From NCBI GenBank assembly GCA_903850915.1, contig CAINMV010000037.1, positions 1 to 64,000 on the forward strand: a DNA stretch of 64,000 bases. The letters run 5' to 3'. The notes beneath the pieces are model-generated. The model was not told the origin of the DNA. It did not search any database and saw only the letters and a list, made by a program, of their open reading frames with translations. A program made the translations under genes and the position numbers. The DNA is from an uncultured Bacteroidota bacterium (GTDB lineage: Bacteria > Bacteroidota > Bacteroidia > UKL13-3). Shown here piece by piece: positions 7,646 through 51,503 of this stretch; the first letter of the stretch is position 1; every line of letters begins with the position of its first letter.

Positions 7646-7679
7646 TTGTTTAAAAAGCAACTTTTTTACTTAAAAAGCA

Positions 7680-7703
7680 AAAAGTGTGACGTAAAACACT
7701 TTT
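7680..7703. terminator. Stem-loop between convergent genes, likely bidirectional terminator
   Basis: Arms AAAAGTGT (7680-7687) and ACACTTTT (7696-7703) are perfect complements around an 8-base loop. The outer parts are A- and T-rich on both strands, which suits termination of both the peptidase gene and the converging TPR gene. The stem is AT-rich and so only moderately strong. Confidence 0.55.
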
Positions 7704-7726
7704 AGCAAAGATCCTGTTTTCTTACT

Positions 7727-30309: not shown

Positions 30310-30352
30310 TGCTTATGATATATTTTTATTCGGATTTTGTAAAAACTAACTC

Positions 30353-31942: not shown

Positions 31943-31996
31943 ATGTTGTTTTTTAGAGATTTCATCTCTACTCAGTAATGCTCTTTACTTTACAAA

Positions 31997-33712: not shown

Positions 33713-33883
33713 GGATAGCTTGAAACTTTTTGGGGAATTGAAAATGACCTTGTTGTTGTTGGACGACAAAAAATAAAAAAACCTTCGCAGGCATCACCTA
33801 CGTAAAAGAAACAGACAAATGGGAATAGCCAAGCATTAAGCTCATTTAAAAGAACTTTATTGATAAAAAAATTGACTACTTTA

Positions 33884-35365
33884 TTAATGTACCGCCGACT
33901 CAAGCTGGTCCTCATCAATACCTTGAGTTTTTAAAATTGCCTTTGCTTTATAGGCGAAGAACGCAAGATATGCGAAACAAAATACAGTAATAATATAGCT
34001 CATGTGAATGCCAATACTATCGGCTATTTTACCTTGAATAGGAGGAATAATGGCACCACCTAAGATCATCATTATTAAAAATGCTGACCCTTGGCTAGCA
34101 TATTTTCCCAAGCCAGAAATTGACAATGCAAAAATAGCTGGCCACATGATGCTACAAGCCAAACCACCGCTTAAAAATGCGTACAATGCAACCTGACCAG
34201 TAGTTAACAACCCAATAAGCATGGCTGCCATACCGAAGAATGAAAACAACATAAGCGTTTTCGCTGGTTTTTCGTTACCCATAAAATATGCCACAATTAA
34301 AGCTACTACACAAATCGCATATTTGTATAATTGAGAGATATCTTTCCCCCCGAAGCTATTTACTAATAATACCAAGCCAAAGGCAAGAAAAGGAACTATA
34401 ACAATTAACACCTGTCTCAATTGTTTTGAAATATTAAATGCGGCGATAGCAGGTTTACCGTTTATCGTGACACGGAAACTCAATTGTTTTGAAATATTAA
34501 ATGCGGCGATAGCACCTGCCCATCTTCCAATCATTAAACTACCCCAATACAAAGAAATAAAAGGAGCAATATCACTAGCATTCAAACCACCGAAAGCCTC
34601 TTCCTTCAGTAAAGAACCCATATTGCTTTGTATGGTAACTTCAACACCAACATAAGTAAAGATCGCCACCATACCTAATACCAATTGAGGGTATTTTAAA
34701 GATCCCGCACCCGGCTCAAACACTTCATCTTTGGTAATCTCTGGTAACTTTACCATCGAAAAGAAAATAGCAACTGCGAGAAAAATTCCAGCCAAAATAA
34801 GATACAATGAATTTATTGATGTAATAGAAACCGGCGCATCGCTGCTAACAGAACCAAACAAAATAATACCTACCACCAAAGGTCCGAGTGTAGTTCCTAA
34901 GGAGTTAACTCCACCTGCCAATGTTAATCGGTGTGCTCCTGTTTCTGGACTTCCCAATGCAATTACAAAGGGTTGAGCACAGGTTTGTTGTAATGAAAAG
35001 CCAAGGGCAACAATAAAAAATGAACCTAGAATTAGAGGAAACTCACCTACATTAACTGAGGGTATTATCGCTAAAGCACCAACTACTGAAATTAACAAAC
35101 CATAAATGATTCCTTTTTTATACCCAATTTTATTTAAGATGTCAACCTTTATTATCTGCGACAAGGCAAGTAGTAAAATTGAACCTATAAAATAGCCACC
35201 ATAAAAGGTAAAATCAACCAACTGCGATTGAAATTGACTTAGGCTAAAATGACTTTTACAAAAGGGAATAAAAATCCCATTTGAGGCAGCCACAAATCCC
35301 CAGAAAAAGAACACAGAGATAATGATTGATAATGCTGAATAGTTTTTGTTTGTAGGGTGTACCAT
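33884..35365 (-). CDS. FucP-like MFS sugar transporter with a 21-residue internal insertion
   Basis: This sugar/H+ symporter of the FHS (fucose/glucose/galactose) group has about twelve membrane helices. [18 protein letters not shown], the [12 protein letters not shown] segment and [13 protein letters not shown] are family landmarks. After helix 7, in a cytoplasmic loop, the sequence AAFNISKQL occurs twice, separated by a foreign-looking stretch, so the protein carries 21 extra residues against the usual layout; the reading frame stays open. It follows the glucan locus after a terminator and may import its released monosaccharides. Whether the insertion leaves it active cannot be judged from sequence. 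Confidence 0.88.
34416..34514. repeat. 36-bp direct repeat flanking a 27-bp insert inside the transporter gene
   Basis: Two identical 36-base copies, 34416-34451 and 34479-34514, surround 27 unrelated bases (34452-34478) that contain the small palindrome CGTGACACG. The period is 63 bases, a multiple of three, so the gene remains in frame. It looks like a templated duplication or a small in-frame insertion with target duplication. An assembly error is also possible. Confidence 0.85.
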
Positions 35366-35412: not shown

Positions 35413-35451
35413 ATAAAAAAAAATCCGGCGACTGCCGGATTCTTTTTTTTT
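35413..35451 (-). terminator. Rho-independent terminator after the carbohydrate-binding protein gene
   Basis: Arms AATCCGGC (35422-35429) and GCCGGATT (35434-35441) enclose a 4-base loop and are flanked by long A- and T-runs, so it can work on the minus strand for the glucan locus. It separates that locus from the sugar transporter gene, whose start is 48 bases downstream of it. Confidence 0.9.
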
Positions 35452-35468: not shown

Positions 35469-37184
35469 TTAATCAATCTGTAATTTCATAGTTTTCTCCA
35501 GACTACCAATCTGACATTTAACAATATAGATTCCAGGCTTCAATGCACGGATATCGAAATCCATTTCATTATTATTTGATTGTACCAAGGTTCTATCCAT
35601 AACCAACTCGCCAAGTACATTATATATATGCACGAATACATCATTTGATGTGGCTTGTCCTATGTTGATATGCAAAACCTCCTTGGCAGGGTTCGGATAA
35701 ATCTGAATCGCATTTACTTCTTCTTTATTAATACCAGAATTAAAGCAAGTGCTACATGTGTTCCAACATACTAAAGGAAGCGAATCGTTCTTAGATCCCG
35801 ATTTGTAAAGACGATTTGTAAATGCACCTGTAGTTTTAACACAAGGTAAAGCAACTGCCAATGTTTCTTGAACTGTCCAATTACCAATAACATATTTAAA
35901 TTCATACTCGGTAGCAGTATCTAATGCAACAGTAGCTTCGTAAATTTTTGTTCCCGCAATAAGTGTCATTGGAGTACAAACACCACACCAACCGTTGAAA
36001 GTACCATTTAAAGTTAAGGTATCGGTAGTTTTCACTGAAGTGTTTTTCATATCAACTTTGAACTTCACATTCACTTTCGCTGGTGGCGGAGGTGGGCCTC
36101 CTGCACCGAAAACAACATTGTCAAAATAATAGGTTTTAGCTCCACCTGCCTGAACTCCTGTTACACCGAAGTTAAAAAATATCGAAAGCATTTTATAGGT
36201 ATAACCAAAATTAATTGCGGCAGTTCCTGAGGCTTGGTTTGCAAAATCGAAAACCAAAACATCCCATCCATTTTTTACTTTTGTTTTCGCTTCAGTCTCT
36301 ACGCTTTTTGTTGGATCTGTTGGATCTTCTGCTTTTAAGCGCACCATGATACCGGTATCAGGAGAATAAACCCTAACACTTAATTTAGTTGAGCCTGCTA
36401 CAAATGGGATTGCATTAGCTAGGCCTGATGAAGTGCTTAATGTAGTACCTGCCCATAATTCAGCAGTAGCACCTTTTATTACTTTACCAACTTTGTTGGC
36501 TGCATTATTTGGATCAGCAACAACAGAACTTGCATTACCACCAAAATCAACCATAGTATAATCTACATTGGTAGAATCGAAGTTGATAGGTAATTTAATT
36601 TTGGCCAATACCGGACCGCTAGTTGTAACAAATTTCACGTCGTCGCAATAGTAGACTTTAGTTCCAGCAGCGCTTCCGGCAACATTAAAATTAAAAAACA
36701 CAGAGAGTTTCTTGTATGTTTTTGAAAGATCTAAAGCTGCCGTTCCGCCTGCTTGATTTGCAAAATTAAATTCAAGTGTTTCCCACGCGTTTGATAAGGT
36801 GGTACGCGCTTCTGTTTCAACACTGATTGCTCCATTTGTTGCATCCTCTACTTTCATACGAACTGGAATGTTCGCATCAGGAGAATAAACACGCATGGTG
36901 ATTTTTGTAAGAGAGGCTGTAAAAGGAATAGCGGTAGCTAAGCCTGAAGTGCCTAACGTAGTTCCTGCCCAGGTTTCAGCGGTGTTGCTTTTCGTTATTT
37001 GGGCGACTTTATTCGAACTTACAACAGGGTCGGTTACAATGGCACTAGCGTTTCCACCGAAATCTCCGAGATTGTAATTAACGTTGGTACTGTCGAAATT
37101 AATCGGCAAGTTTACAGCTACCTGAGCATAGCTGTAGGCATAAAAAATAATGCTTAAAAGTAATGTAGAAATTTTCTTTGTCAT
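35469..37184 (-). CDS. Secreted carbohydrate-binding protein with two tandem beta-domains, T9SS client
   Basis: Signal peptide about 1-20 (ending AYAQ). Two homologous domains of about 165 residues follow (about 22-190 and 198-365), each starting INFDSTNV and containing the DFGGNAS, AETWAGTT or AELWAGTT, and VRVYSPD or MRVYSPD segments and a closing YY-DDV or YYFDNV strand, in the style of carbohydrate-binding jelly rolls. A starch-binding-like Ig domain (about 378-470, LNGTFNGWCG) comes next, then a T9SS sorting domain (IYPNPAKEVLHINI). No catalytic motif is seen. It is last before the terminator and 104 bases after GH16, and probably holds glucan at the cell surface. Confidence 0.82.
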   Translation of the reverse strand: MTKKISTLLLSIIFYAYSYAQVAVNLPINFDSTNVNYNLGDFGGNASAIVTDPVVSSNKVAQITKSNTAETWAGTTLGTSGLATAIPFTASLTKITMRVYSPDANIPVRMKVEDATNGAISVETEARTTLSNAWETLEFNFANQAGGTAALDLSKTYKKLSVFFNFNVAGSAAGTKVYYCDDVKFVTTSGPVLAKIKLPINFDSTNVDYTMVDFGGNASSVVADPNNAANKVGKVIKGATAELWAGTTLSTSSGLANAIPFVAGSTKLSVRVYSPDTGIMVRLKAEDPTDPTKSVETEAKTKVKNGWDVLVFDFANQASGTAAINFGYTYKMLSIFFNFGVTGVQAGGAKTYYFDNVVFGAGGPPPPPAKVNVKFKVDMKNTSVKTTDTLTLNGTFNGWCGVCTPMTLIAGTKIYEATVALDTATEYEFKYVIGNWTVQETLAVALPCVKTTGAFTNRLYKSGSKNDSLPLVCWNTCSTCFNSGINKEEVNAIQIYPNPAKEVLHINIGQATSNDVFVHIYNVLGELVMDRTLVQSNNNEMDFDIRALKPGIYIVKCQIGSLEKTMKLQID

Positions 37185-37288: not shown

Positions 37289-38131
37289 TTAAAATGGTAA
37301 AAATTTGAATGACTTAATGACAACCTCTACTTCTTTATTATCAGAAGGTGCTATTCCATTTAAAAGCCATAAATTAAATCGAACATTCGTACTGTCGCTT
37401 GGGGCAGGCACCACTATTGCATCTGAAGTCAAGCCACCTTCAAGTTTGCGTCTTGCAACATTGGTGCTGTCGAATGACCACGTGGCCAAAAGGTTATTTC
37501 CTGGATAGGTATTTCCTTCATAGGTTTCCCATAAAATTTTACCCGACGACCATTTGAACATGTGAGTGCATGGCCCTTTTAGTTTGCTAACCTGCATCTG
37601 TGGCTTGCGCGTTCGCTCAGGATAGGGTGCAGCATTATCAAACCAAACCGGCTGTGCGCTGTACGTTAATAAAAGCGAATCCGATGCATTATTCCAACGA
37701 GCAAATTCGATATCTACTTCGCTATTGGCTTGCTTTTGAAAGGAATAGTCGTCCCATGAAAACAATCCGAAAACCACTTTCTCATTTAAAGTGGTTAAGT
37801 CACTACCGGTGGTAAAAATATATCGCCCATAGCCGAATTCTTTTACGGAAATTAATTCAGCACAACTCCATATGTTATTGCTCTTGGTAATTTTTAAATG
37901 CAAGTAATTATTTGAATCGAGCCAAATATTACTAGACGAATTTGCGAAGCGGTTGGGTCCTGGACCAACTTGCGTTCCATTACTGTTTTTAATGTTCCAG
38001 TAATATCCTGAAAAGAAGATGTCGCCAGTTTCTACAGGTGTTGGAATAGGCAATGGATCCGATTGCTTGCAGGAAAACAAACAGGCAGCCAAACAAAAAA
38101 ACAAACTTGTGAAAATTATTTTACCTGACAT
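37289..38131 (-). CDS. GH16-family glucanase, lipoprotein
   Basis: This is a 280-residue single-domain enzyme with a lipoprotein signal (LFSC, Cys21). The GH16 catalytic signature ExDxE is present as Glu138-Val-Asp140-Ile-Glu142 in NSEVDIEFARW, with the family's preceding GYGRYIFTT strand and a TYEGN segment near the active-site cleft. GH16 enzymes cut beta-1,3 or mixed-linked glucans, or galactans, with retention. A lipid anchor without SusD nearby suggests it acts on the cell surface or at the outer membrane. It overlaps the GH3 gene by 11 bases, so it is the last gene of a tightly packed operon. The exact linkage cut is not predictable here. Confidence 0.85.
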   Translation of the reverse strand: MSGKIIFTSLFFCLAACLFSCKQSDPLPIPTPVETGDIFFSGYYWNIKNSNGTQVGPGPNRFANSSSNIWLDSNNYLHLKITKSNNIWSCAELISVKEFGYGRYIFTTGSDLTTLNEKVVFGLFSWDDYSFQKQANSEVDIEFARWNNASDSLLLTYSAQPVWFDNAAPYPERTRKPQMQVSKLKGPCTHMFKWSSGKILWETYEGNTYPGNNLLATWSFDSTNVARRKLEGGLTSDAIVVPAPSDSTNVRFNLWLLNGIAPSDNKEVEVVIKSFKFLPF

Positions 38132-40373
38132 AAATTACTTTTTTTTGATTTGACAATTGAATTTCAATAGCTCCCGGTTCAGTAATACGCTTTAAGTTTT
38201 TATCAATGAACGAAAAATCTTCTTTATGCATTATAAAACGAAGCTCTTTTGTCTCCCCTGGATTTAATGCAATTTTCTGAAAGTTAGTTAGCTTTTTCAC
38301 GGATGGCGTGATAGATGCTACCATATCCTTATAATATAGCTGCGCTACTTCCATCCCGTTTTTGCTTCCGCTATTAGTGATTGAAAAATTCAACACAATA
38401 GAATCAGTATTGTTTAAAATCGTATCCGAAAACTTGAACGATGAATATTGGAATTGAGTATAAGATAGTCCAAATCCAAAATCGAACTCAGGCCGGTAGG
38501 CATTTTGAGAGAAGTCAATATCCTGATCTTCGGAGGCTTTGTGGTCGTAATGTACTATTGCATTGGATGCCATTGGATAAGTAAACGGTAACCTGCCACT
38601 TGGATTAACTTTACCTACGATACAATCAGCAATGGCTCTACCCCCTTCGTCTCCGGGTAAATAACCATATAATATTGCATCAACTTTCTCTACAATATCA
38701 TGAATAATTCGAGGGCGATTAAAGCAACAAACTAGTATAATCGGTTTTTTAAGCGTTGCTAATGCAAGAACCAATTGCTTCTGTGCATCTGATAATTCAA
38801 GTTCGTCAATATTTCCAGGGATTTCTGTACACGGCTTCTCACCCAGACAGATAATTATTTTATCGGAACTTTTGGCTTCACTTATAATTACATTCATATC
38901 TCCCAAAGAATCGAGAGAAGCACCCAAACTATATGAAACACCTTTCTTACTGTAATTTGATATTAATGACTCCAGTATTGTCTTTTTGTTTTTTGTGTTA
39001 TACGTTGCATCTACACCTTGCCAGGTATGCGTCCAAGCTCCATTAAGTAAATTGAGACTATTGGCTGCGGGTCCGCATACAAATATTTTCTCCTCCTTGT
39101 TTTCCAAGGGCAATAAGCCATCTTTATTTTTAAGCAATGTCACTGATTCACATGCCGCTTTATAGCTGACATCAGAAAACTCCAGAGACCCAAACTTGGG
39201 ATACATCGATAATGGGTAAAATGGTTGATTAAAAAGACCCAAATCTTTTTTCAATTTTAAGATGCGCGTTACCGCTTCATCAATACGACTTAATGGAACA
39301 CCACCTTCATTCACCAATTCTAACAACAATTCATTAAACTGAAAATCGTTGGGAGTCATACTCATATCGATGCCCGCCATTATAGCCATTTTTACAGCTT
39401 CCTTTTTGTCTGTTGCCACGTGATGAACGGAAACCAATTTGTAAATATCCTCCCAATCTGTCACAGCCACTCCTGTAAACCCAAGTTCGTGGCGCAATAA
39501 TCCGGTTAGTATATCGTAATTAGCATGCACCGGCGTACCATTAATATCTCCAGAATTTATCATCACCGTTTTTGCTCCAGCATTAATGGCTTGTTGAAAA
39601 GTAGGCACGAAGTACTCTCGTAATTCCCTATCTGATATCCAAGCTGGAGTTCTATCCTTACCACTTAAAGGGAAGCTATATCCCAAAAAATGCTTCATAC
39701 ATGCCGAAACTTTATATGGATTGTCAGTGTTACTGCCTTGTAACCCATTAACCGCAGACTTTGCCATAGTTTTTGCCAAGAATACATCTTCTCCATACGT
39801 TTCAAAAAAGCGCGACCATAAAGGTTGTCTTCCCAAATCGAGCACAGGTGAAAAGTTCCAAGGAATTGCACTAGCACGAGTCTCATAAGCAGAAATTGCA
39901 TTGGCTTGTTCAACAAGTTGAGGATTCCATGTTGCAGCCTGTCCTATTTCTTGTGGAAACAATGTTGCACCCATGGTATAATTTGCGCCATGTATAGCAT
40001 CGATACCATAAAGAACTGGAATTTTCAATCTAGAAAACTGGTTATTGGTATTTTGAATAGCGTCAATTATTTGGCGCCAATTGTCCATTGCGATTGTGCC
40101 ACTTCCACAGCCTACATTTAATATGGATCCCACTTTATATTTTGCGATAGCCAATTTCAATTTGTCGATATCCAACGCCTGTGGATTCTTTAAATTGCAA
40201 ATATCGCCTACAGCGACAACCCCTAAATCAACCTGCGACATTTGCCCAACCTTCTCTTCTGTGTTCATCATTTTGAGTAACGAATCAATAGAGATATCTC
40301 TATTATATTGTGATTGCAAAGTCACAGATAAATGAAGTAAGGCTAAAAGAAAAAGTAGACTTCTATTTTTCAT
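38121..40373 (-). CDS. bglX: GH3-family beta-glucosidase
   Basis: It removes terminal beta-linked glucose (or xylose) from oligosaccharides. Signal peptide about 1-20 places it in the periplasm. The 750-residue chain has the N-terminal TIM barrel with nucleophile Asp306 in VAVTDWED and substrate motif KHFLGY, the alpha/beta sandwich (about 390-600) with GEKPCTEIPG, and a C-terminal FnIII domain (about 660-745). Length and layout match BglX. It overlaps its neighbours on both sides by 11 bases (upstream lipoprotein, downstream GH16), so the products are made together. Glucan disaccharides or oligosaccharides are the likely substrate. Confidence 0.93.
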   Translation of the reverse strand: MKNRSLLFLLALLHLSVTLQSQYNRDISIDSLLKMMNTEEKVGQMSQVDLGVVAVGDICNLKNPQALDIDKLKLAIAKYKVGSILNVGCGSGTIAMDNWRQIIDAIQNTNNQFSRLKIPVLYGIDAIHGANYTMGATLFPQEIGQAATWNPQLVEQANAISAYETRASAIPWNFSPVLDLGRQPLWSRFFETYGEDVFLAKTMAKSAVNGLQGSNTDNPYKVSACMKHFLGYSFPLSGKDRTPAWISDRELREYFVPTFQQAINAGAKTVMINSGDINGTPVHANYDILTGLLRHELGFTGVAVTDWEDIYKLVSVHHVATDKKEAVKMAIMAGIDMSMTPNDFQFNELLLELVNEGGVPLSRIDEAVTRILKLKKDLGLFNQPFYPLSMYPKFGSLEFSDVSYKAACESVTLLKNKDGLLPLENKEEKIFVCGPAANSLNLLNGAWTHTWQGVDATYNTKNKKTILESLISNYSKKGVSYSLGASLDSLGDMNVIISEAKSSDKIIICLGEKPCTEIPGNIDELELSDAQKQLVLALATLKKPIILVCCFNRPRIIHDIVEKVDAILYGYLPGDEGGRAIADCIVGKVNPSGRLPFTYPMASNAIVHYDHKASEDQDIDFSQNAYRPEFDFGFGLSYTQFQYSSFKFSDTILNNTDSIVLNFSITNSGSKNGMEVAQLYYKDMVASITPSVKKLTNFQKIALNPGETKELRFIMHKEDFSFIDKNLKRITEPGAIEIQLSNQKKVIYVR

Positions 40374-41019
40374 GATTAAGCTTCACAATTTTAATTTCAT
40401 CTAAATAAATATCACCTTCCGCTTCCAACTGCATCATAAACTGCTTCACTTTTCCCAAATCGGCATCCTTAGCTTCAAAAGGGAATTTATTTAAAGGTAT
40501 GGTAACCGTGGTCCATGTTTTATCATTAAAAATTCCTGATGCCAATTGCGCATTAAAACCATAATACGTTTGTACGCTTGTATAATCTTCGAAAGCAAAG
40601 GCAACGGGTAAATTGCTAAAGCTTCCTTTTACTGCCTTCACATGAAACTGAACGGCTGCGTCATTAACAACCTCTATCATATCTTTAGCTTGCCAATTGT
40701 TCCAGCCAAAACCGATGCCAATCCAATTGCAACCACCTGTGATTTTATCCCATTTTACATGTAAAGAATAGGTGCCGGCATAAATTTCTTTAGTCTCTTT
40801 TGTTAACTGAACACATTGCGTTTCAGGGGATACCCAAACACTGTTGTCCATGTTATCTGCAAAAATTACTACATCTTTAAATCCATTGATAGAGGAAGTG
40901 TCTTCCGATGCAACGACATCATACAACTCTTTTTGCTTTACTTGTACCAAAGAAGATTTATGAACAACACATTGGCTGAACATCAAAAGCAAAAAACAGA
41001 ATAGCAACAAATGCTTCAT
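40363..41019 (-). CDS. Lipoprotein with a carbohydrate-binding-like domain
   Basis: This 218-residue protein has a lipoprotein signal (MFSQC, Cys17). The mature part is one beta-rich domain (about 45-215) with TYSLHVKWDKITGGCNWIG and a closing IYLDEIKIV strand, like carbohydrate-binding domains of the CBM4/11/29 type. No catalytic residues are apparent. It overlaps the GH3 gene by 11 bases, and its ATG shares one base with the stop of the upstream lipoprotein gene. It probably displays glucan-binding capacity at the outer membrane, in place of SusD/SusE-type lipoproteins. The family is inferred from sequence style, not a clear signature. Confidence 0.72.
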   Translation of the reverse strand: MKHLLLFCFLLLMFSQCVVHKSSLVQVKQKELYDVVASEDTSSINGFKDVVIFADNMDNSVWVSPETQCVQLTKETKEIYAGTYSLHVKWDKITGGCNWIGIGFGWNNWQAKDMIEVVNDAAVQFHVKAVKGSFSNLPVAFAFEDYTSVQTYYGFNAQLASGIFNDKTWTTVTIPLNKFPFEAKDADLGKVKQFMMQLEAEGDIYLDEIKIVKLNHEK

Positions 41020-42017
41020 TATGGTTCAATTGGGCTAGAGGTGAAGATAAGATAATCGATTTTGCAACTTGCAAAACCATTGTCCTTATTGGCTAAATGG
41101 TACATCGATATTTTTCCTATTTTATTTGGATTATGTTGGCTGTTACCTTTAGGCGTTACCGGCTGACCATTTACCATGGAGGTAACATCGCTGTATTTTA
41201 TAGTTACCAATTTCCATCCCGACCAGTTTACATCTATTTGATAATCATATTCGTCTTCATTGGCAGCGTTAAATATTCCATCTGCATTTTCATCTTCTTT
41301 AAACTGAAATAAAACTAACGATGAATTGGTATTTGGCACACCATAAATTAAGCAATTGAAAAATACCGCATCTGGATTCGTGGCTAAAGCCAAGGTATTA
41401 GAGGCGCTGTAGGCTGTTGCCGGAAAATCGATATAACCGATACACCAATCCCAATTTACCGTACCGGCCATATTTAAATATTTTGCTCCTTGTGGAGCAT
41501 ACGTATCAGCCTTTACATTAAAATCCATGTTCGCACCCGATTGAGCAAATTTTGTCCAAGCCGAATTAAAACCATTTTCAAAATCGGCAATTACCAAACC
41601 ATTATTTACTTTAGTTGACCTGATTTTAATAGGCAACAGAAAACTATCTGTAACACCTTCCACTGTTAATTTAGCAATACAATTTTCCACTCCAAAAATT
41701 GGAAATACGGTAGTAGATCCATTCCAGGTTCCATTGTTAGCATCAATTGTTTTGCTTTGGCCTGTAATTATTTTCTGGGCTTTTGACGTCGTCCCTGTAA
41801 TGGATATCTGCCATTTTACAGCTTTATTAAAACTAGCAGTGAAGTGCGACACTTCGCCTGCAGCAAATGATACACTGTCCTTATCGCACTTGAAGTTGTC
41901 TATTAATTTAAAGTTACTGTAAAGATCCTGAATGCTCGGCCCATCAAACTTGGAATTGTCTTTTCGACAAGCATTTAATAGAAGCAAACAAAAAACGGCA
42001 ATTGTTATATTTTTCAT
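41019..42017 (-). CDS. Surface-glycan-binding-type lipoprotein
   Basis: This 332-residue protein has a lipoprotein signal (LLLNAC, Cys17). The mature chain has an Ig-like first domain (about 35-135, with SHFTASFNKAVKWQISITG) and a jelly-roll-like second domain (about 140-330, ADFENGFNSAW ... CKIDYLIF), an arrangement seen in surface glycan-binding proteins of polysaccharide loci. It begins 2 bases after the upstream barrel gene's stop and ends sharing a base with the next lipoprotein. It is likely to be the glycan-binding partner of the two barrels. Binding specificity cannot be read from the sequence. Confidence 0.72.
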   Translation of the reverse strand: MKNITIAVFCLLLLNACRKDNSKFDGPSIQDLYSNFKLIDNFKCDKDSVSFAAGEVSHFTASFNKAVKWQISITGTTSKAQKIITGQSKTIDANNGTWNGSTTVFPIFGVENCIAKLTVEGVTDSFLLPIKIRSTKVNNGLVIADFENGFNSAWTKFAQSGANMDFNVKADTYAPQGAKYLNMAGTVNWDWCIGYIDFPATAYSASNTLALATNPDAVFFNCLIYGVPNTNSSLVLFQFKEDENADGIFNAANEDEYDYQIDVNWSGWKLVTIKYSDVTSMVNGQPVTPKGNSQHNPNKIGKISMYHLANKDNGFASCKIDYLIFTSSPIEP

Positions 42018-42019
42018 GG

Positions 42020-43735
42020 TTAGAAGGTCATGTTATAGGTGATAGCAAATTGATTTAATTTGTACTGCGGATTCAAATTTAACTTATCGTTGTAGTTGCT
42101 GTATTGGTAGTTACCACAAAGATAAATACGATCAGAAAATCGGCATCGGATTCCAAAGGCTGTGATTTGTTGATGTAAGTCATAATTTACATTGGTTAAG
42201 TAATCTACAACAGAGTAGGCGTTGCGTGAATCACTAAAATCATTGCCTTTGTTGTTTACATTAATTGTGCCCAATAAAATGTCGATGTTTGAGAACAGTT
42301 CATATTCCAATCCTACAGTCATAATTAGCGTGTTCAATTTAACATGCTCTACTTCCACCTGCGACTTACGCATAGTAGATTGCAAGTCTAGTCCAGCTTG
42401 AATTTTAAATGATCGTTTTGTGCTAATAATTTTATTGATTTCTAAAGCCGCATTTACTTTTGTTTGAGTAAATTTCTTCAATGCAAATGTACCTTGACCT
42501 CGTATTTCGGATAAATTATTGTGCGTTGCATTGCATGTAATACCCTTTTGATTATCGAACTTGGCTTTCAGATAGGCGCCTACACGATTAAAGGTGGCGA
42601 TTCCGTATGGTAAAATATTATTATAGATAGGGCTAGTAACCATTAGGTTAGAATTCACTGAAGTGGTATATAAATTGTCATTTCGTATTATATCCATTAC
42701 ACTTAATGGCCGACTGGATTGTGCATTACCATATCGGTTATAAAATTCTGGAGTGGCATTATAATTTACGTTTTTACTTTGAGCACCAATGCTTCTGAAA
42801 TCAGGTCCTACATTTAAATAACCTAGGCTTAAATTAAGATGTTGTTTAGGTAATTTAAACTCGGTATAGGCATGGATAAAATAATCCTGCATCGAAGAAG
42901 CCGTTATGTTTTCCGTTGTTTCAGATAGGCTACGACCCGCTTCAGCCTTTATTTCCAAGGGTTTGTTCTTGATTTGTGTTTTATAAATAAAACTAAAAGT
43001 ATTGACAAGGTTACGATAGCGGTTACTATCGATTATTGTTCCTTTAACATCGAATACAGAAAAGTTATTGTACCCGAATCCAAAATTTTTACTTTGTAAT
43101 ATGTTGACGGTAAATCCGCCCATTAGCCTATCGGGCACTTTGGCAAAATCTGTGGCAAGCAATCGTGTGAGGTAACCATCAAAGTCTGCTTCCTTTAAAT
43201 ATTTCGAGAATTTTAGTCCAAAATCCAAATTCACACCTTGCTGTCTCCACGTATTATTCAAATAGAACTTCTCGTACGAAATAATTTGATTCTGAAAATT
43301 GAAAATAGCGGGCAAGGAGTCCAATTTATCTGCGTGGTGATTGTATAGGGTAAACGGCGTTTGTTTTAAATTTAAATCGCCAACTTGGTAACGCACTACA
43401 TTAGCGATAACACCCTTTAACCAAAGCTGACGGACATCAAAGCTCACACCAGAACCCCAAAAACCACCATATTGATTACGAATTCGAAACATTCCAAGTA
43501 TCTCAGTGTTCTTATTCGGCTTAATATTAACACCAAGATCTATCAAGGCATAACCGCCTGTGTTTCTTTTCGTGGTTAGCGTATCTGGAAAGCTATCCGT
43601 TACCAGAATCCTATTGTTCGACATCATTGAACGCGCACCACCAATAAAATCTACGGCACGCTTTTGCTGTGCGAATAATGCTCCAATGCTAAAAAGCAGG
43701 AACAACATGCCAAGGGGGATTTTTAATTTATACAT
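42020..43735 (-). CDS. Outer-membrane beta-barrel protein (second of a pair)
   Basis: Signal peptide about 1-22 (ending LFAQ). The 571-residue mature chain is almost wholly amphipathic beta strands with alternating hydrophobic residues and aromatic girdles, and it ends in Phe (AITYNMTF), the usual last residue of an outer-membrane barrel. There is no TonB box, plug domain or carboxypeptidase-regulatory domain, so it is not a SusC or TonB receptor. Its start directly adjoins the stop of the upstream barrel gene (no spacer), so the two are co-translated. It could form a channel for glucan oligosaccharides. I do not recognise the family. Confidence 0.75.
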   Translation of the reverse strand: MYKLKIPLGMLFLLFSIGALFAQQKRAVDFIGGARSMMSNNRILVTDSFPDTLTTKRNTGGYALIDLGVNIKPNKNTEILGMFRIRNQYGGFWGSGVSFDVRQLWLKGVIANVVRYQVGDLNLKQTPFTLYNHHADKLDSLPAIFNFQNQIISYEKFYLNNTWRQQGVNLDFGLKFSKYLKEADFDGYLTRLLATDFAKVPDRLMGGFTVNILQSKNFGFGYNNFSVFDVKGTIIDSNRYRNLVNTFSFIYKTQIKNKPLEIKAEAGRSLSETTENITASSMQDYFIHAYTEFKLPKQHLNLSLGYLNVGPDFRSIGAQSKNVNYNATPEFYNRYGNAQSSRPLSVMDIIRNDNLYTTSVNSNLMVTSPIYNNILPYGIATFNRVGAYLKAKFDNQKGITCNATHNNLSEIRGQGTFALKKFTQTKVNAALEINKIISTKRSFKIQAGLDLQSTMRKSQVEVEHVKLNTLIMTVGLEYELFSNIDILLGTINVNNKGNDFSDSRNAYSVVDYLTNVNYDLHQQITAFGIRCRFSDRIYLCGNYQYSNYNDKLNLNPQYKLNQFAITYNMTF

Positions 43736-45619
43736 TTAAAAAAATATTTTAATTTCAGCGGTAGTTTCATAACCACTGTATTTGTCTTTACTAAAACTTG
43801 AGTCGTACGAATTCATCCACCGTTGTCGCAGATAAAGTCCGGCACCTTTACTTAGTCGTATATCGAATCCTGTTGCAATACTTATTCCTGTTTGGTTTTT
43901 GGGTCTCCTTGAGACTACATCTGTTTGTGTTTCATAATTGGCAATAATTCTTTCAAAACCGGCATAGTTACACCAGATGAAATTATTGCTAATACCAAAA
44001 TAGGTTTCTAATTGATGATAGTATGTTCGTAATAGCGCCTTCTCGGTAAATATTGTTAGGGGTGCTAAATTATTTTGAGCCGAGCTAAATTGTCCGAGAT
44101 AATAAATATAGAAATCATGCGCCCCCATACTGCCATGGTATTTTGAGTTTATTTCAACACTATTAAAATACTTTTTCTTTAACGGTAGGCCTGTTGTCGC
44201 ATCTATGGAGGTAAGGTTTACCGTTTCATAAACATTTCTGTATATTTTAGAAAGATTATTGTAAGGTCCGACGTTGCTTGGAAAATCCCATCTCCAGAAA
44301 TGTGCCAACACCAAGCTGTTTACAGGATGAGCATAGGTGATTTTAGAAGAAAGATTCTCAATTTCAGCACTGACATTATACCCTATTGCTGTTTTTATTT
44401 TTCCAATATTCACTTGTGCATTTAAATCCACGCCTTGTCTATTATTTACCAGTTGGCCAATAGGAGCCATTGTACTTGCAACAGCAGGTAATACAGGCTG
44501 TGTGCTTGTATTGGCAGTAAGTATTTGGGTTTGCTCAAAAGAGGTATTAATAAATGATGAGCTATTGTTTACCACCTTAGAGCTAATTCTGAATAGATGC
44601 ATTTCAAGTGGATACTTTTTAAATAAATCACCTGAAATTTTTAAAGAAAGCGCCTCTCCCCATCCATTCGATTTTTCTTGCACGAAGGCTCTGCCCATCC
44701 CCAATTCACCTTTAAGTAAAATGCGTTTAATTTTATTTCGAAACTCTAAAGTTGCCACATTAAAACCTATGCGGGTTTGTTGTAACGTATCGGTATAACT
44801 TACATTATTAAACGTATTGGCACTGATATAGTTACTGCCATATTCTTTTTTTATCTTTCCTCCTATTGAGTTGTTTGGCAAAGGTGAAAGACCTCCATTC
44901 AGTTGTGTTTTGCCATACATCATCACACCAGAAAATCCTTTTGGCAATCTGCTTGCCTCTAAAATCATTCCTTGAAAAGCTTGCTGACCCCAACGCTCAT
45001 CTTGATTGATACTTCCTGAATTATAAAAATCAGCATAGCGGGAATCCATATTTTTAGTATTCGGATCCCATGGGTTACGTTCAAAAATACTATATCTATT
45101 ATAACCTTTATTTGATTGAAATGTAAATGGTGTAAGTGAATACCAGTTGATACCTCCGGTACGAACATTAAAATCACCTAATGAGCTTGTGAAGTTTCCA
45201 TACAAACTAATACCTAAGTTCAAACCTTTAACATTTTCCGTTGTTCCGAGTCCGGTCATGGGTGTCCACATATACAAATCGGTACCAAAAGTGGTGTTTT
45301 TTGCCACACTTCCGCTCATATTCAACATCAGTTGAGGAATTTGACTATCATCACCAACAAAAATATTGTTTTTATTGTTTTCGAGATGGGCATAGGCCTG
45401 GTTTAAATGACGATAATTGGACACAAAACGATAATACCCATTCACACTGAACTGTTTCAATGCAGTGGCGGCAGTCTTCGGAAAATTTCCGACTTCAAAA
45501 TATTTCAATCCATTCTGATAAGTACTATCAACAGCTGTATTTTTTTCCTGAGCCATTGCTAAAAAACCGGGCTGGAATAAGAAGCCAAAAAGTATTAAAC
45601 ACGTAAATTTAAATTTCAT
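43736..45619 (-). CDS. Outer-membrane beta-barrel protein (first of a pair)
   Basis: Signal peptide about 1-23 (ending AMAQ). A short helical lead (about 30-50) is followed by a long run of beta strands to the C-terminal Phe (TAEIKIFF) at residue 627. Strand-rich segments such as FSVNGYYRFVSNYRH and TTFGTDLYMWTPMTG suggest a large barrel. As in its neighbour there is no plug or TonB box. It starts 1 base after the GH-A hydrolase stop and runs straight into the next barrel gene. Position between hydrolases and binding lipoproteins suggests a role in oligosaccharide passage or surface assembly. Family not recognised. Confidence 0.75.
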   Translation of the reverse strand: MKFKFTCLILFGFLFQPGFLAMAQEKNTAVDSTYQNGLKYFEVGNFPKTAATALKQFSVNGYYRFVSNYRHLNQAYAHLENNKNNIFVGDDSQIPQLMLNMSGSVAKNTTFGTDLYMWTPMTGLGTTENVKGLNLGISLYGNFTSSLGDFNVRTGGINWYSLTPFTFQSNKGYNRYSIFERNPWDPNTKNMDSRYADFYNSGSINQDERWGQQAFQGMILEASRLPKGFSGVMMYGKTQLNGGLSPLPNNSIGGKIKKEYGSNYISANTFNNVSYTDTLQQTRIGFNVATLEFRNKIKRILLKGELGMGRAFVQEKSNGWGEALSLKISGDLFKKYPLEMHLFRISSKVVNNSSSFINTSFEQTQILTANTSTQPVLPAVASTMAPIGQLVNNRQGVDLNAQVNIGKIKTAIGYNVSAEIENLSSKITYAHPVNSLVLAHFWRWDFPSNVGPYNNLSKIYRNVYETVNLTSIDATTGLPLKKKYFNSVEINSKYHGSMGAHDFYIYYLGQFSSAQNNLAPLTIFTEKALLRTYYHQLETYFGISNNFIWCNYAGFERIIANYETQTDVVSRRPKNQTGISIATGFDIRLSKGAGLYLRQRWMNSYDSSFSKDKYSGYETTAEIKIFF

Positions 45620-45620
45620 A

Positions 45621-47075
45621 CTATTGTTCGTTAAACGACCTCATGTCTTTTTTCTTAAATTCAATCCATCGCGCCTGTCCATCTTGTTCAGCACGTTTCT
45701 CAACCCAAAAAGGAATATTGGCATAAGCCACCTTTCCATTTGACGTTACCTTAACAAAAATACGATAGGCGCCTTCGACCTTTGGTGCTCTCAATTCAAT
45801 GGCACTTCGCGATCCGTGTTTTATTAGTCCATGAATTTCTTGAGCTTCTTCTTCTGCGTCTCCGCCCGATTTCTTATCGCTACTTTCGGAAAGCACTTTC
45901 CAAGTGTAAACAAAAGCATGGTTAGAATCTTCTACTAAATTATCCATGTTCACTCCTATTTCAGCAACCACATCTGCTTTATAAATCTCCTCGGCTTTCA
46001 ACCTGATATCCTTATTATCGCTGGAGTTATTAAGTGTCATACTAACAACAGTTGGAGCCGGCAGCGTTGGATTCTTGCCTGTGAAAACCATTTCAAGTGC
46101 GTCGATTGGTTCTGTAGGTAAGTTATCTTTTGTAAACAAACCAAACCAAGTTTCAGTATACTCTTGTTTCATACCCCACAAGAAGGCGTATGAGCCCAAA
46201 CACTTTTCTTTGTTGGCGTCGATATAATTTTTATAGCGATCATAAAAAACTCGCTTTTTTTCAGCACTAGTCTGTTCAATGGCTGCCTTCCAAGTAGTGT
46301 TCGGTGATTCCCAATATCCATTAGGCCCCCATTCGGTAATCATATAAGGGCCATCCCAACCAAATTTTGCAATATTTAATGGAACATTAGCGATGTCACC
46401 ATACGTATTCACACAATAAACATCAACGTCCGGTGCATTCTTTTTAATTAGTTGCACCTCTGAGGAATCTAAGCCTGCCGTAACAGTTGAAGTTGGATGG
46501 TTTGGATCAACTGCATGTGCATACTTGGCAATATCTTGCACTGCATTCCAACATTTTGTATTTGTATAGTTTAGGTCGAGCTCATTACCAATACCCCACA
46601 TCAGCAGTGCTGGATGATTTTTATATTTATCTATTATCGTCTTAAAATAATTTAACTGCTTGAGTACTTTTTCTGAGTCGCTGTAATTAAAGCCATGACG
46701 TTCGTGCTGAAGCCACAACCCTAACATCACGGTGAGTCCTCTTTTTTGAGCTTCATCAAGCACCTGCTGCGCATTTTCTACGCCCCAAATTCGAATAGAA
46801 TTGCCTCCAATAGCCACCACTCGATCAAGATTTACGTCACCTCCTAAACCCTTCACGTAATATGGTGCCCCATTCCTATAAAAACTGTAATGTTCACCTT
46901 TTCGTACTACCTTAGTTTGTGCTGAAAGGCATACACTAAAGTTTAGAAGTAATATAAAAAACAATGTTTTTATATCAAAATTGATCCTACTTTTAAAATA
47001 GTTCGTAATTCCAACTATTGCAGGAGCATTTCCTGAATGGGCTTTGGTATATGAACTAAGAGGATGGTTTGTCAT
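45621..47075 (-). CDS. Clan GH-A glycoside hydrolase (GH2-like TIM barrel)
   Basis: An N-terminal extension is followed by a hydrophobic signal (about 34-52, ending LSAQ), then a (beta/alpha)8 barrel (about 55-335). The acid/base Glu165 in GNELDL and nucleophile Glu248 in ITEWGPNG give the clan GH-A arrangement; the lead-in YVKGLGGD and SIRIWGVENA is GH2-like. A beta-sandwich domain (about 350-475) follows. It lacks the GH2 sugar-binding N-terminal domain, so it is not a standard beta-galactosidase; it may be a glucan exo- or transglycosidase. The first ATG is the only one before the signal. It lies 34 bases after the sigma-factor gene and heads the packed operon. Confidence 0.85.
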   Translation of the reverse strand: MTNHPLSSYTKAHSGNAPAIVGITNYFKSRINFDIKTLFFILLLNFSVCLSAQTKVVRKGEHYSFYRNGAPYYVKGLGGDVNLDRVVAIGGNSIRIWGVENAQQVLDEAQKRGLTVMLGLWLQHERHGFNYSDSEKVLKQLNYFKTIIDKYKNHPALLMWGIGNELDLNYTNTKCWNAVQDIAKYAHAVDPNHPTSTVTAGLDSSEVQLIKKNAPDVDVYCVNTYGDIANVPLNIAKFGWDGPYMITEWGPNGYWESPNTTWKAAIEQTSAEKKRVFYDRYKNYIDANKEKCLGSYAFLWGMKQEYTETWFGLFTKDNLPTEPIDALEMVFTGKNPTLPAPTVVSMTLNNSSDNKDIRLKAEEIYKADVVAEIGVNMDNLVEDSNHAFVYTWKVLSESSDKKSGGDAEEEAQEIHGLIKHGSRSAIELRAPKVEGAYRIFVKVTSNGKVAYANIPFWVEKRAEQDGQARWIEFKKKDMRSFNEQ

Positions 47076-47109
47076 TGTTTGATTTTAAAGTTACAATTCC
47101 TTCTTTTTA

Positions 47110-47730
47110 TTAACCGACCATATTAAAAACAGCGGACTGGCTTGATTCTGAATTTTGAATTCGGCTTATGTCTCGCAATTGACTCATCAAAGTTAACTTA
47201 AAATTCTTTTTTGCCCTATAAATTAATGAATCTACTGCTGTTAATGTTGTCTTCATCTTTCGTGCTATTTCGGTATTGCTATAGCCGTCCAACTTACTTA
47301 GGGTAATTGCCATTCGTTGGTTGTCGGGCAAGCAATTTAAAGCATGAAAAAACAACCCAACGCTCTCTTTATCTTCAAGTCTTTTGTCTGGCCTGTCCTT
47401 ACAAATCAACCGATGCGCTATCTCGTCAAGTCCTGAGGTAATGCCTGCCGTACTCACTCGCTTCTTTCTTTGCTGGCGCTTAATTTCATCTAGCGATTTT
47501 GCAACAGCAATGCGGTACATCCAAGTACTCAGTTTCGATTCACCCTTAAACTTATCAATAGAGTTAAACACTTCAATAAAAACTTCTTGAGAAACATCCT
47601 CTGCATCCTCTTTATTCATAAGAAAACGATAACACACATTAAGAACCGTTTCTTTATAGGCAGAAACAAAGTCATTAAAGGATATCCTATCCCCAGAGCG
47701 AAGTTGGTGTATTAAATGCGCCTCAGTCAT
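47110..47730 (-). CDS. ECF-type RNA polymerase sigma factor heading the glucan locus
   Basis: This 206-residue sigma-70 relative has region 2 at about 10-80 (YRFLMNKEDAEDVSQEVF, STWMYRIAV) and region 4 at about 120-175 (LPDNQRMAITLSKLDGYSNTEIA). It ends with a short Ser-rich tail. I start at the ATG at 47730; the frame upstream has no ECF-like sequence. No anti-sigma factor, FecR-like gene or two-component sensor adjoins it. The stop is 34 bases before the GH-A gene, so it is either the first gene of the operon or its regulator. Autoregulation of the locus is a reasonable inference. Confidence 0.88.
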   Translation of the reverse strand: MTEAHLIHQLRSGDRISFNDFVSAYKETVLNVCYRFLMNKEDAEDVSQEVFIEVFNSIDKFKGESKLSTWMYRIAVAKSLDEIKRQQRKKRVSTAGITSGLDEIAHRLICKDRPDKRLEDKESVGLFFHALNCLPDNQRMAITLSKLDGYSNTEIARKMKTTLTAVDSLIYRAKKNFKLTLMSQLRDISRIQNSESSQSAVFNMVG

Positions 47731-48209: not shown

Positions 48210-50168
48210 CTATTGCTTAACAAACTTGCTGGCCATTTGGTTATGATCGCCAACGCGAATAACATAAAAGCCCGTTGCGAGTGTATGCGTATCCAACAAG
48301 GTATTAGCATTCAACAAAACACCACTTTTTACAGCCTTTCCTAGTGCATCATAAATGCGGTACGAAAGTGGAGCATTGAAAGTTCCTGTAGTTATTGTAA
48401 TTTCATCCTTTGATGGATTCGGATAAATAAAAATATCAGGTATTAGAGGCGAATCTGTATTTATTCCAATGGGCAGTTGATTGGGGTCTTTTACAGAGCT
48501 GCTTTTACAAAGCAGCCAATTAGATGGGTCCACCTGCACTGCAATTACTGAGTCTTTAATGGTGATTGCTGTACCTTGAACATTTTTGGTGAAATATACT
48601 TTTATGGTAGTATCCCCTTTTGTAGTTTTAATTTTATACTCAACTGGGGTGTTAAACAAACTTACACTCGATGGCATCGAAGTGGACTGTGCATTAATAA
48701 TACTCAGACGGCTACCCAGCTGATTCCAGAATAGGTTAAACGTAGGATATCCTTCGCCAAAGTACCATTGATTAAAAAATCGAGTGAAGTCCTTGCCTGA
48801 CAAATCTTCAACCACCTTTTTGAAATTTAGGGCTGTGGCTGTGCCACCTTTAAATTTTCGGATATACTCCTTCAAAATATTAAAAAAGAGGGTGTCGTTA
48901 TTTAATTCAAAACGAATCATATGAATAATTGAGGAGCCCTTTTGATATGTTAGGCGACTGCTGAATATTCGTCCTACATTGCTAGTATCATTGCACCATA
49001 CACTACCATCGGGAGCACTCATAGCGCTATTATGCGAGTTCACCATATATTGTGGCGCCCTTGCTGTATCCAAATATTGATAAGCCAAATACGCGGTATA
49101 TGTAGCAAACCCTTCATTCACCCAAATATCATTCCACGTGGCACAAGTTACCGCATCGCCAAACCATTGATGTCCGAGCTCATGAGCAATTATTTCGTAA
49201 TTTATTACACCTAGAGTAGTCATGGTTTGATGTTCCATACCACCACCGAGCGGCGCCATACTATGTCCATATTTTTCATTGGCAAAAGCATAAGGCCCAA
49301 ACAATTTACAATACAATTCCATAATAGATTTTGTATTGTTAAATTGGGGCTTCATGGCTGCAATAGTGGTGGGGTTATCGTAAATGTAATTCTGAATTAA
49401 AATAGGCGGGGTATTCACCGGATAGGCATAAAAACTATAATCATAGTATTTGGTGACTGCCACTGAAATTAAATAACATTCAATTGGATTGGTTTGTTGC
49501 CACTCATAGCGTTTTTTATTACCTATGACTACTGTGTTTTTCAATTTGCCATTCGACCCCACTTTATTCGCACTATCTGTGGTTATGTATACATAAGAAG
49601 AATCAATTTTATCTTGCAGACTTTGTTTGCAAGGCCACCATTCTTCAGCGCTATATGGCTGGCTTAAAGTATAGGTAACCTGGAGTCCACTCGATGCGTC
49701 GGTTGCATTTGTAATTCCATCACCAATAGCGGCAGTGCCTGGTTTTGGTGGAGTACCATGATAATATACTTTTATATCCAAAAGTGCACCTAGCGCTTTT
49801 GTTGTTGGAAATTTTGCATAACAAAAGTTTCCAACATGGGCGGTCAACAACTTTTGTGTTCCAGAAAAAACAGAATCCAAAATCATGGCATTGTAAAGCT
49901 CAAAAGCGAAAGTATCGAGCGGGCTAATTGCTATTGAGATAGATCTTACCCAGCCGCTAATATCCGTTGAGGTACGCTCTAAATTTAAATTAAGGTGGTA
50001 GAATTTAACATCATACTTGTTCATAAGAACTTCCTGGATGCTTTCCGGTCCTGATTCAGGACAGTAACGACCGCGATTGGATTTAACCTCGGAACAAAAA
50101 TTTTGTTGTGCAAAAATGGTTGAGGTAATTGAGCTAATCAGAATAAATAGCAGAAACAAATGTCTCAT
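48210..50168 (-). CDS. Secreted M1-family aminopeptidase, T9SS client
   Basis: This zinc aminopeptidase removes N-terminal residues from peptides outside the cell. Signal peptide about 1-20 (ending IFAQ); N-terminal M1 beta domain (about 50-240); GGGMEHQTM; then HELGHQWFGD with zinc ligands His329 and His333, catalytic Glu330, and third ligand Glu352 in NEGFATY. A type A T9SS sorting domain starts near residue 575 (IYPNPSKDEITI). The GMEH form in place of GAMEN is typical of this secreted subgroup. It stands alone between the glucan locus and the cyanophycin genes. Confidence 0.93.
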   Translation of the reverse strand: MRHLFLLFILISSITSTIFAQQNFCSEVKSNRGRYCPESGPESIQEVLMNKYDVKFYHLNLNLERTSTDISGWVRSISIAISPLDTFAFELYNAMILDSVFSGTQKLLTAHVGNFCYAKFPTTKALGALLDIKVYYHGTPPKPGTAAIGDGITNATDASSGLQVTYTLSQPYSAEEWWPCKQSLQDKIDSSYVYITTDSANKVGSNGKLKNTVVIGNKKRYEWQQTNPIECYLISVAVTKYYDYSFYAYPVNTPPILIQNYIYDNPTTIAAMKPQFNNTKSIMELYCKLFGPYAFANEKYGHSMAPLGGGMEHQTMTTLGVINYEIIAHELGHQWFGDAVTCATWNDIWVNEGFATYTAYLAYQYLDTARAPQYMVNSHNSAMSAPDGSVWCNDTSNVGRIFSSRLTYQKGSSIIHMIRFELNNDTLFFNILKEYIRKFKGGTATALNFKKVVEDLSGKDFTRFFNQWYFGEGYPTFNLFWNQLGSRLSIINAQSTSMPSSVSLFNTPVEYKIKTTKGDTTIKVYFTKNVQGTAITIKDSVIAVQVDPSNWLLCKSSSVKDPNQLPIGINTDSPLIPDIFIYPNPSKDEITITTGTFNAPLSYRIYDALGKAVKSGVLLNANTLLDTHTLATGFYVIRVGDHNQMASKFVKQ

Positions 50169-50450: not shown

Positions 50451-51311
50451 TTAACCAGCCACTACATTACCTTCGTCGAAGACCCTAGTTTTTAAATTAT
50501 AGGCATTGCCTGCTTCCATAATATGTACAATAAGCCCTTCAACACTTATTGGCTGCTTCTCATCAATATCGGCAATATTATTATGACGAATATTTCGTCC
50601 ATCAACAATAGTTACAGCGCCACTTCCAATTGCAACCAAATCGCTACCATGTCGAACCACAACGCCAGTATCTTCACCTAACCCAATACCCACAGCGCCT
50701 GGGTTTGCAGCCACTGCTTGAGCCAAACGCGAAAATCGACCTCTCTTATCGAAATGTGAATCGATGATGACACCCGGCAAAAAACCAAGTCCTGTGGTTA
50801 GCTTCACCTCCCCTTTTAAATGTGCTCGACCTGCATTACCCTCGTATATCATAGTGCCACTCATGGCCATAGCGCCTGCGCTAGTGCCTGCAATAATAAA
50901 ATTCTCCTCTTGATATCGTTGTAAGGTAATGTCTAAAAAATCTGTTCCTCCAAAAATAGACGAAAGACGCAATTGATTTCCACCACTGAACATCAAGCAC
51001 TGACATTGCTTTAATCGTATAATATTATCCTGCATTATTGCATCATTACGATCGCGAATTCTCAGGTGTCCTACATTCTCAAATCCAAGAACTTTAAACG
51101 CGTGAAAATAATTATCGGCTACCTCATCAGGAATAGAGGATGCTGTAGTCACCACTTCAATCCGAGAGGCCTTGTCCGTTAAAAACTTGGTGATATTCTT
51201 AAGAATACCCATCTCCATAAAATTCAAGCGGTTCCGCTCAATAATTCCTGCCTCCAAATCTGTACCTTTATCTTCGGCTCCGCCTACGGGTATTAGTATT
51301 CCTTGTATCAT
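50451..51311 (-). CDS. cphB: Cyanophycinase (family S51)
   Basis: It degrades cyanophycin (multi-L-arginyl-poly-L-aspartate) to beta-Asp-Arg dipeptides in the cytoplasm. The 286-residue length is typical. The nucleophile Ser144 sits in the family signature GTSAGA, with LMFSGGNQLRL upstream and HFDKRGRFSRL downstream. I use the ATG at 51311; a TATTTTTG promoter element only 9 bases upstream excludes the longer TTG-initiated frame. It is divergent from cphA with about 190 bases between, the usual pairing of synthesis and breakdown. Its dipeptide product suits the isoaspartyl peptidase at 12094. Confidence 0.95.
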   Translation of the reverse strand: MIQGILIPVGGAEDKGTDLEAGIIERNRLNFMEMGILKNITKFLTDKASRIEVVTTASSIPDEVADNYFHAFKVLGFENVGHLRIRDRNDAIMQDNIIRLKQCQCLMFSGGNQLRLSSIFGGTDFLDITLQRYQEENFIIAGTSAGAMAMSGTMIYEGNAGRAHLKGEVKLTTGLGFLPGVIIDSHFDKRGRFSRLAQAVAANPGAVGIGLGEDTGVVVRHGSDLVAIGSGAVTIVDGRNIRHNNIADIDEKQPISVEGLIVHIMEAGNAYNLKTRVFDEGNVVAG

Positions 51312-51320
51312 GTATAATTG

Positions 51321-51328
51321 CAAAAATA
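51321..51328 (-). promoter_or_regulatory. TAnnTTTG -7 element of cphB
   Basis: TATTTTTG on the minus strand, 9 bases upstream of the ATG at 51311. No clear -33 TTTG accompanies it. It gives a very short leader and fixes the start codon. Confidence 0.45.
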
Positions 51329-51503
51329 GGTCTTAAACAATTAGTTTTAAGCCTATATTAAGATTAGCAAACAACTATTTTTTTATGGTATAGACGTATT
51401 TATTTTTCAACACGTTTTAAAATTCTATCTTGCAACAAAAAAGCCTCGATTCTTTTTTTTATAAATCACCGTTTTTCAAGAATAATAATCCTACACACTC
51501 CAC

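Follow-up and report, generated by a model that had tools for sequence, protein, structure and literature searches.

How does a bacterium take up the products of polysaccharide breakdown when the locus for this breakdown lacks an obvious importer? In Bacteroidota, the SusC/SusD pair is regarded as the signature of glycan use, and methods for finding polysaccharide utilization loci (PULs) depend on it. The locus described here lies within the first 64,000 nucleotides (the window) of contig CAINMV010000037.1 of an uncultured Bacteroidota bacterium (assembly GCA_903850915.1), and combines an extracytoplasmic function (ECF) sigma factor with glycoside hydrolases (GH), lipoproteins and two predicted outer-membrane barrels. 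A first-pass annotation of the sequence had proposed that the barrels and lipoproteins form an alternative oligosaccharide uptake system. As outlined below, the locus is likely a variant of the atypical PUL chu_1276-1280 of Cytophaga hutchinsonii for beta-1,3-glucan of the laminarin type, including the proposed uptake through barrels. The genes and sites concerned are the following, where CBM stands for carbohydrate-binding module, SGBP for surface glycan-binding protein, T9SS for type IX secretion system, AF2 for AlphaFold2 and MFS for major facilitator superfamily.

47110-47730, minus strand: ECF sigma factor gene (206 amino acids from an internal ATG; the longest open reading frame (ORF) starts at 47853)
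45621-47075, minus strand: GH158 enzyme (structure-profile matches, catalytic motifs)
43736-45619, minus strand: barrel 1, CHU_1276 homologue (BLASTP, AF2 model, C-terminal F)
42020-43735, minus strand: barrel 2, CHU_1277 homologue (BLASTP, AF2 model)
41019-42017, minus strand: lipoprotein A, CHU_1278 homologue, CBM11-like (BLASTP, weak CBM_11 match, lipobox LNAC)
40363-41019, minus strand: lipoprotein B, in the position of CHU_1279, single CBM30/SGBP-B-like domain (PF21582, PF18329)
38121-40373, minus strand: GH3 beta-glucosidase with a type I signal peptide (Pfam GH3 domains, BoGH3B match)
37289-38131, minus strand: divergent GH16-like lipoprotein (ExDxE motif, weak GH16 matches)
35469-37184, minus strand: T9SS-secreted CBM-like repeat protein (Por_Secre_tail)
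35415-35448, minus strand: terminator-like hairpin, bidirectional (15 pairs and a T-run)
33884-35365, minus strand: gluP-type glucose/galactose MFS transporter (TIGR01272)

The locus resembles the atypical PUL of C. hutchinsonii

In C. hutchinsonii, the chu_1276-1280 genes are co-activated by cellulose, and chu_1276, 1277, 1279 and 1280 affect cellulose use, while mutants lacking chu_1276 or chu_1279 grow more slowly on 0.1% glucose. The cluster has been named an 'atypical PUL' and was reported in two close relatives (PMC12016534). In addition, chu_1276 and chu_1277 have been reported to be important for maintaining cell-associated beta-glucosidase activity (PMC5553014). A published primer (PMC7906972) led us to a Cytophaga-like family, in which 17 of the 19 genomes contain barrel 2. 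One genome (G441) was taken as C. hutchinsonii ATCC 33406, as it carries the published chu_0029 primer (PMC7906972) at 32 kb and its barrel genes are located where locus number 1276 of approximately 3,790 is expected. At 1.487-1.496 Mb, this genome encodes proteins of 747, 606, 380, 375 and 598 amino acids, in this order, the last being a GH9 enzyme. The 375-amino acid ORF equals CHU_1279 in its published length, and the order barrel 1, barrel 2, lipoprotein A, 375-amino acid protein and GH9 matches the published one. In BLASTP comparisons, barrel 1 matched CHU_1276 (1e-55, 27%), barrel 2 matched CHU_1277 (6e-70, 30%) and lipoprotein A matched CHU_1278 (7e-25).

Both clusters contain adjacent, homologous barrels and a CHU_1278-type lipoprotein, which are arranged identically, together with another, SGBP-like lipoprotein and an endoglucanase. 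SusC/SusD is absent from both, and an ECF sigma factor is involved in control. They differ in their enzymes, which are GH158, GH3 and GH16-like in the window and GH9 in Cytophaga, so that the endoglucanase role is the same but the family is not. Furthermore, lipoprotein B of the window has a single domain, its sigma factor gene is located in cis, a T9SS-secreted protein and a gluP-type transporter adjoin, and the predicted substrate is beta-1,3-glucan instead of cellulose. Based on these comparisons of sequence and gene order, the system in the window appears to belong with the chu_1276-1280 atypical PUL. The kind of system that had been put forward as an alternative to SusC/SusD was thus already known from Cytophaga; uptake nevertheless remains its best reading, and we infer that the barrels mediate the import of oligosaccharides.

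No SusC/SusD pair is linked to the locus

All eight genes of the minus-strand run recognized in the first-pass annotation were recovered with the coordinates listed above, including the close packing behind the sigma factor gene. From the sigma factor gene to the GH16-like gene, the successive intergenic gaps are 34, 1, 0, 2, -1, -11 and -11 bases, so that seven genes are spaced by -11 to 2 bases. Pfam assigned an ECF sigma factor, a TIM-barrel hydrolase, two CBM-like lipoproteins and a GH3 enzyme, left the two barrels unassigned and gave no match for one protein. None of the proteins matched SusC, SusD, TonB_dep_Rec or Plug, in line with the absence of SusC/SusD that had been claimed. When checked for a SusD-like fold, lipoproteins A and B matched only CBM or SGBP-B families in Pfam. 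There is also no linked pair just outside the run: contig C37, which carries the locus, contains none, and the two pairs of this genome are located on contigs C34 and C27, which hold the only two SusC proteins that pass the cut-off and the only SusD-like genes. A SusC/SusD locus cut by the edge of the window was rejected on the same ground.

One of these two pairs (L172, positions 2521-8821) has a class-V aminotransferase and a protein of the phosphoesterase family as neighbours. This pair may serve another nutrient, because the aminotransferase looks like a phosphonate-pathway enzyme.

The barrels are predicted to lack a plug

The two barrels had been described as lacking a TonB plug, and both sequence scans and AF2 models agree with this. 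By sequence, neither barrel matched any TonB receptor, plug, SusC, usher or porin family, and none of 29 barrel family members that were scanned matched Plug or TonB_dep_Rec. The AF2 models, built from 17-sequence alignments, predict 22 strands for barrel 2 (predicted local distance difference test (pLDDT) score of 76) and approximately 22-24 strands for barrel 1 (pLDDT 72). Both models open with the first barrel strand and contain no plug, and TonB receptors align only from around residue 134 of their own chains onward. A C-terminal phenylalanine, which is typical of outer-membrane barrels, is present in 66 of 67 and 61 of 70 members of the two families. A comparison of the family profiles (hhalign, 96%, E = 3e-9) related barrel 1 to barrel 2, and the two are therefore distant paralogues that form an old duplicated pair.

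The best structural matches in the PDB were porins, ushers, including FimD, and the barrel parts of TonB receptors (Z of approximately 13-16), and no single family was prominent among these three groups. With TonB-dependent transporters such as SusC, the barrels share a barrel part of similar size and fold, but they lack the plug, TonB_dep_Rec, the carboxypeptidase-like N-terminal domain and any sequence match, and a TonB receptor that had merely lost its label was rejected since there is no plug. A chaperone-usher system (FimD/PapC) was rejected as well, since there was no match to usher Pfam families and only the barrel part aligned; the models contain no usher accessory domains. The likeness to substrate-specific porins (OprD/Occ, AlgE, maltoporin) lies in the plugless outer-membrane barrel (Z of approximately 14-16). 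For OprD/Occ this is a likeness at the level of the fold (Z of approximately 16, root-mean-square deviation of 4.5-5 over about 300 residues) without a sequence match, and these porins have 18 strands compared to the approximately 22 predicted here. In contrast to the substrate-specific porins, to which there is no detectable sequence relation, the barrels in the window come as a pair of paralogues, carry long conserved loops and are constantly accompanied by surface lipoproteins.

The enzymes point to beta-1,3-glucan

The enzyme that had been labeled a GH-A hydrolase could be refined to GH158 by structure-profile matches, to PDB entry 9oro (GH158, E = 3e-86) and to BuGH158 (6pal, E = 1.4e-72), and the catalytic motifs GNE and TEWGPNG are aligned. 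The GH3 protein contains both GH3 domains (Pfam, E = 8e-67 and 5e-40), its closest solved relative is BoGH3B (5jp0, E = 3e-179), and it is probably periplasmic. The GH16 label of the product of 37289-38131 stood in part. This lipoprotein alone gave no Pfam match, but at the family level there were sub-threshold Pfam GH16 matches in 7 of 14 members (best 0.004), a weak match of the family profile to the 1,3-1,4-beta-glucanase 1byh (E = 0.004) that spans the ExDxE motif, and invariance of this motif (E138-x-D140-x-E142) in 14 homologues, which makes a divergent GH16 probable.

BuGH158 is strictly endo-beta-1,3 and is located together with GH16 and GH3 enzymes in a glucan locus of B. uniformis, BACUNI_01484-01490 (PMC7157763). 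The GH158, GH3 and GH16-like proteins of the window thus seem to repeat the enzyme trio of that locus, and it is because of the GH158 enzyme and these partners that beta-1,3-glucan is the predicted substrate. The two loci also share an SGBP-B-like lipoprotein, but B. uniformis uses SusC/SusD import and hybrid two-component control, whereas the window has the barrel pair and no SusC/SusD.

With regard to the accessory proteins, lipoprotein A has the lipobox LNAC and a weak CBM_11 match (0.0015, Pfam), and lipoprotein B matched PF21582 (6e-7) and SGBP_B_XBD PF18329 (1.7e-6), both passing the cut-off. The T9SS-secreted protein carries a Por_Secre_tail (8e-15), and strong homologues of it adjoin the cassette in relatives. 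Its gene starts 104 bases downstream of the GH16-like gene, and the operon probably extends through it to 35469, ahead of the hairpin at 35415-35448. The latter is the strongest terminator-like site, although promoter-like and terminator-like sites overall were no commoner in the window than in shuffled sequence. The gluP-type transporter (TIGR01272, 1.6e-61, passing the cut-off) is likely the inner-membrane uptake route for released glucose.

The cassette is widespread and barrel lineage follows enzyme set

Barrel 1 was present in 25 of 97 relatives. In an even draw of 395 genomes from the class, 49 (approximately 1 in 8) contain barrel 2, as do four genomes outside the class. We examined 70 neighbourhoods that were found via either barrel, which means that the search did not presuppose adjacency of the barrels. 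In every one of them, barrel 1 is immediately followed by barrel 2 on the same strand, and this arrangement is therefore not due to chance. Lipoprotein A is present in 68 of these loci. The seven-gene set of the window (both barrels, both lipoproteins, GH158, GH16 and GH3) also recurs outside the class, in L166, where it lies behind a LacI regulator. Homologues of the T9SS-secreted CBM-like protein were counted in 40 loci, an upper bound because weak hits to the common secretion tail are included, and a gluP homologue is located near the cassette in 9. In one locus (L107, positions 4176-7091), lipoprotein B and GH3 seem to be fused into one protein of 971 amino acids.

The enzymes near the cassette were GH158 (35 loci), GH3 (36), GH16 at the level of Pfam (28), divergent GH16 (16), GH9 (8) and GH18 (7), and they form three sets: GH158/GH16/GH3, GH9 in Cytophaga, and GH18 with NagB. 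The GH18 loci (L045, L121, L127, L129, L133, L138 and L153) usually contain a second lipoprotein A and, in six cases, a NagB-type gene, which suggests a chitin version of the cassette; none was found in the open-access literature searched. When five neighbourhood labels were placed on the barrel trees, the barrel-2 tree needed 8 changes versus 21 after shuffling and the barrel-1 tree 6 versus 19, and in both cases 0 of 200 shuffles were as low, with the provisos that these are quick trees, that near copies inflate the clustering and that enzyme families serve as proxies for substrates. In several genomes there are two or three cassettes of different types, and each copy places with its enzyme type. 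In family f11, for example, the GH9-linked barrel copies group with those of Cytophaga, and the GH18-linked copies with a GH18 copy of the Cytophaga family. Barrel lineages that track the enzyme set would be expected of substrate-specific channels.

Proposed function and alternatives

The following mechanism would account for the locus. The GH158 and GH16-like enzymes at the surface, aided by lipoproteins A and B and the T9SS-secreted protein, would bind and cut the glucan, after which one of the plugless barrels, or both, may let oligosaccharides or glucose across the outer membrane independently of TonB. The two paralogous barrels may act together, and periplasmic hydrolysis by GH3 and glucose uptake by the gluP-type transporter could provide the driving force. 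Switching of the operon probably depends on the ECF sigma factor in cis. Several points weigh against this mechanism. A transport assay for any family member was not found in the open-access literature searched. The deletion phenotypes in C. hutchinsonii could be explained by lost regulation, envelope effects or enzyme display, the last because of the reported contribution of chu_1276 and chu_1277 to cell-associated beta-glucosidase activity (PMC5553014). Confidence in the barrel models is moderate (pLDDT 72-76), with poorly modeled long loops, and a loop that closes the pore would be possible. Lipoprotein B appears equivalent to CHU_1279 in position, its homology not being secure (profile comparison gave 44% probability, a weak link to the CHU_1279 family), the GH16 assignment looks weak, and linkage to enzymes is no proof of a substrate.

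If the barrels were assembly or display platforms for surface enzymes and lipoproteins, and sugars entered via general porins, the beta-glucosidase phenotype and the presence of FimD among the best structural matches would be explained. A CHU_1279 variant that can no longer bind still allows growth on cellulose (PMC12016534), which also suggests a structural role in a complex. However, the missing usher domains, the low-glucose growth defect of the chu_1276 and chu_1279 mutants, which points to sugar entry (PMC12016534), and the sorting of barrels by enzyme set, which a general display platform need not show, make this explanation unlikely. The target might also be mixed-linkage glucan, fungal wall glucan or another glycan, rather than laminarin-like beta-1,3-glucan, given that the best remote match of the GH16-like protein is a 1,3-1,4-beta-glucanase, the best solved relative of GH3 is an enzyme from a xyloglucan locus and lipoprotein B matches a xyloglucan-binding SGBP-B domain. 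This we consider improbable, as mixed-linkage glucan is a poor substrate for the GH158 enzymes assayed to date, which are strict endo-beta-1,3-glucanases (PMC7157763), and no other enzyme of this cassette type is as well conserved as GH158. Finally, the genome has two complete SusC/SusD pairs that might import the oligosaccharides in trans, with the locus making only enzymes and binding proteins. Neither pair, however, has obvious glycoside hydrolase neighbours, the SusC/SusD-like proteins of C. hutchinsonii are dispensable for cellulose use (cited in PMC12016534), and it is the barrel pair that accompanies the enzymes in all 70 loci. It is unlikely that these pairs serve the operon, and we give very little credence to this explanation as a whole.

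Returning to barrel-mediated uptake, a broader proposal would be that the paired paralogous barrels and a CBM-like lipoprotein form the core of a TonB-independent system, the second of Bacteroidota for glycan import across the outer membrane and parallel to SusC/SusD, with lineages for beta-1,3-glucan (GH158/GH16/GH3), cellulose (GH9) and chitin (GH18 and NagB), and with interchangeable regulators. We consider the arguments for and against this generalization to be evenly balanced.

The cassette has been reported only for cellulose use in Cytophaga and Sporocytophaga, and a search of the open-access literature for SusC-independent PULs gave unrelated matches only. Compared to the literature searched, two variants of the cassette are new, that for beta-1,3-glucan and an apparent one for chitin, as are its spread over the class and outside it, the finding that the two barrels are paralogues and the agreement between barrel lineage and enzyme set. 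PUL prediction based on SusC/SusD would miss such loci, which may lead to an underestimate of how far these lineages use laminarin and chitin. Moreover, the cellulose variant has so far been hard to study, and the glucan variant provides a soluble substrate with which the barrels can be tested.

Regulation

The sigma factor at the head of the operon (Sigma70_r2, 6e-17; Sigma70_r4_2, 2e-13; Pfam) had been presented as leading the locus. It is indeed present, without an adjacent anti-sigma gene, but it is not a feature of the system, since in a survey of upstream regulators across the 70 loci it was found directly upstream only in the window and in the congener locus L031. Other cassettes carry a divergent Reg_prop/Y_Y_Y/LuxR regulator (19 loci), an NrtR-type regulator (14 loci) or LacI, and the cis ECF sigma factor is therefore a lineage-specific, local choice of regulator. 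In C. hutchinsonii, chu_1276 is controlled by an ECF sigma factor (PMC12016534); the best match of the window sigma factor in that genome is a sigma factor at 0.63 Mb (40%). The Reg_prop/Y_Y_Y/LuxR proteins are sensor-regulators of approximately 960 amino acids, divergently transcribed beside the cassette in L034, L042, L043 and 16 more loci.

Neighbouring genes

The gluP-type gene contains a 63-bp in-frame insertion (34451-34513) that is not found in its relatives. It consists of an exact 33-bp direct repeat flanking a 30-bp imperfect palindrome, the latter being single-copy in the window, and may reflect a recent duplication or an assembly fault. Just downstream of this gene (28546-33769), a sulfatase is flanked by two similar T9SS-tailed multicopper oxidases. 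On the other side of the locus, a peptidase S51 (cyanophycinase-like) gene is located divergently from a cyanophycin synthetase-like gene (50451-54113), and this pair is adjoined by a gene for a T9SS-tailed M1 peptidase (48210-50168).

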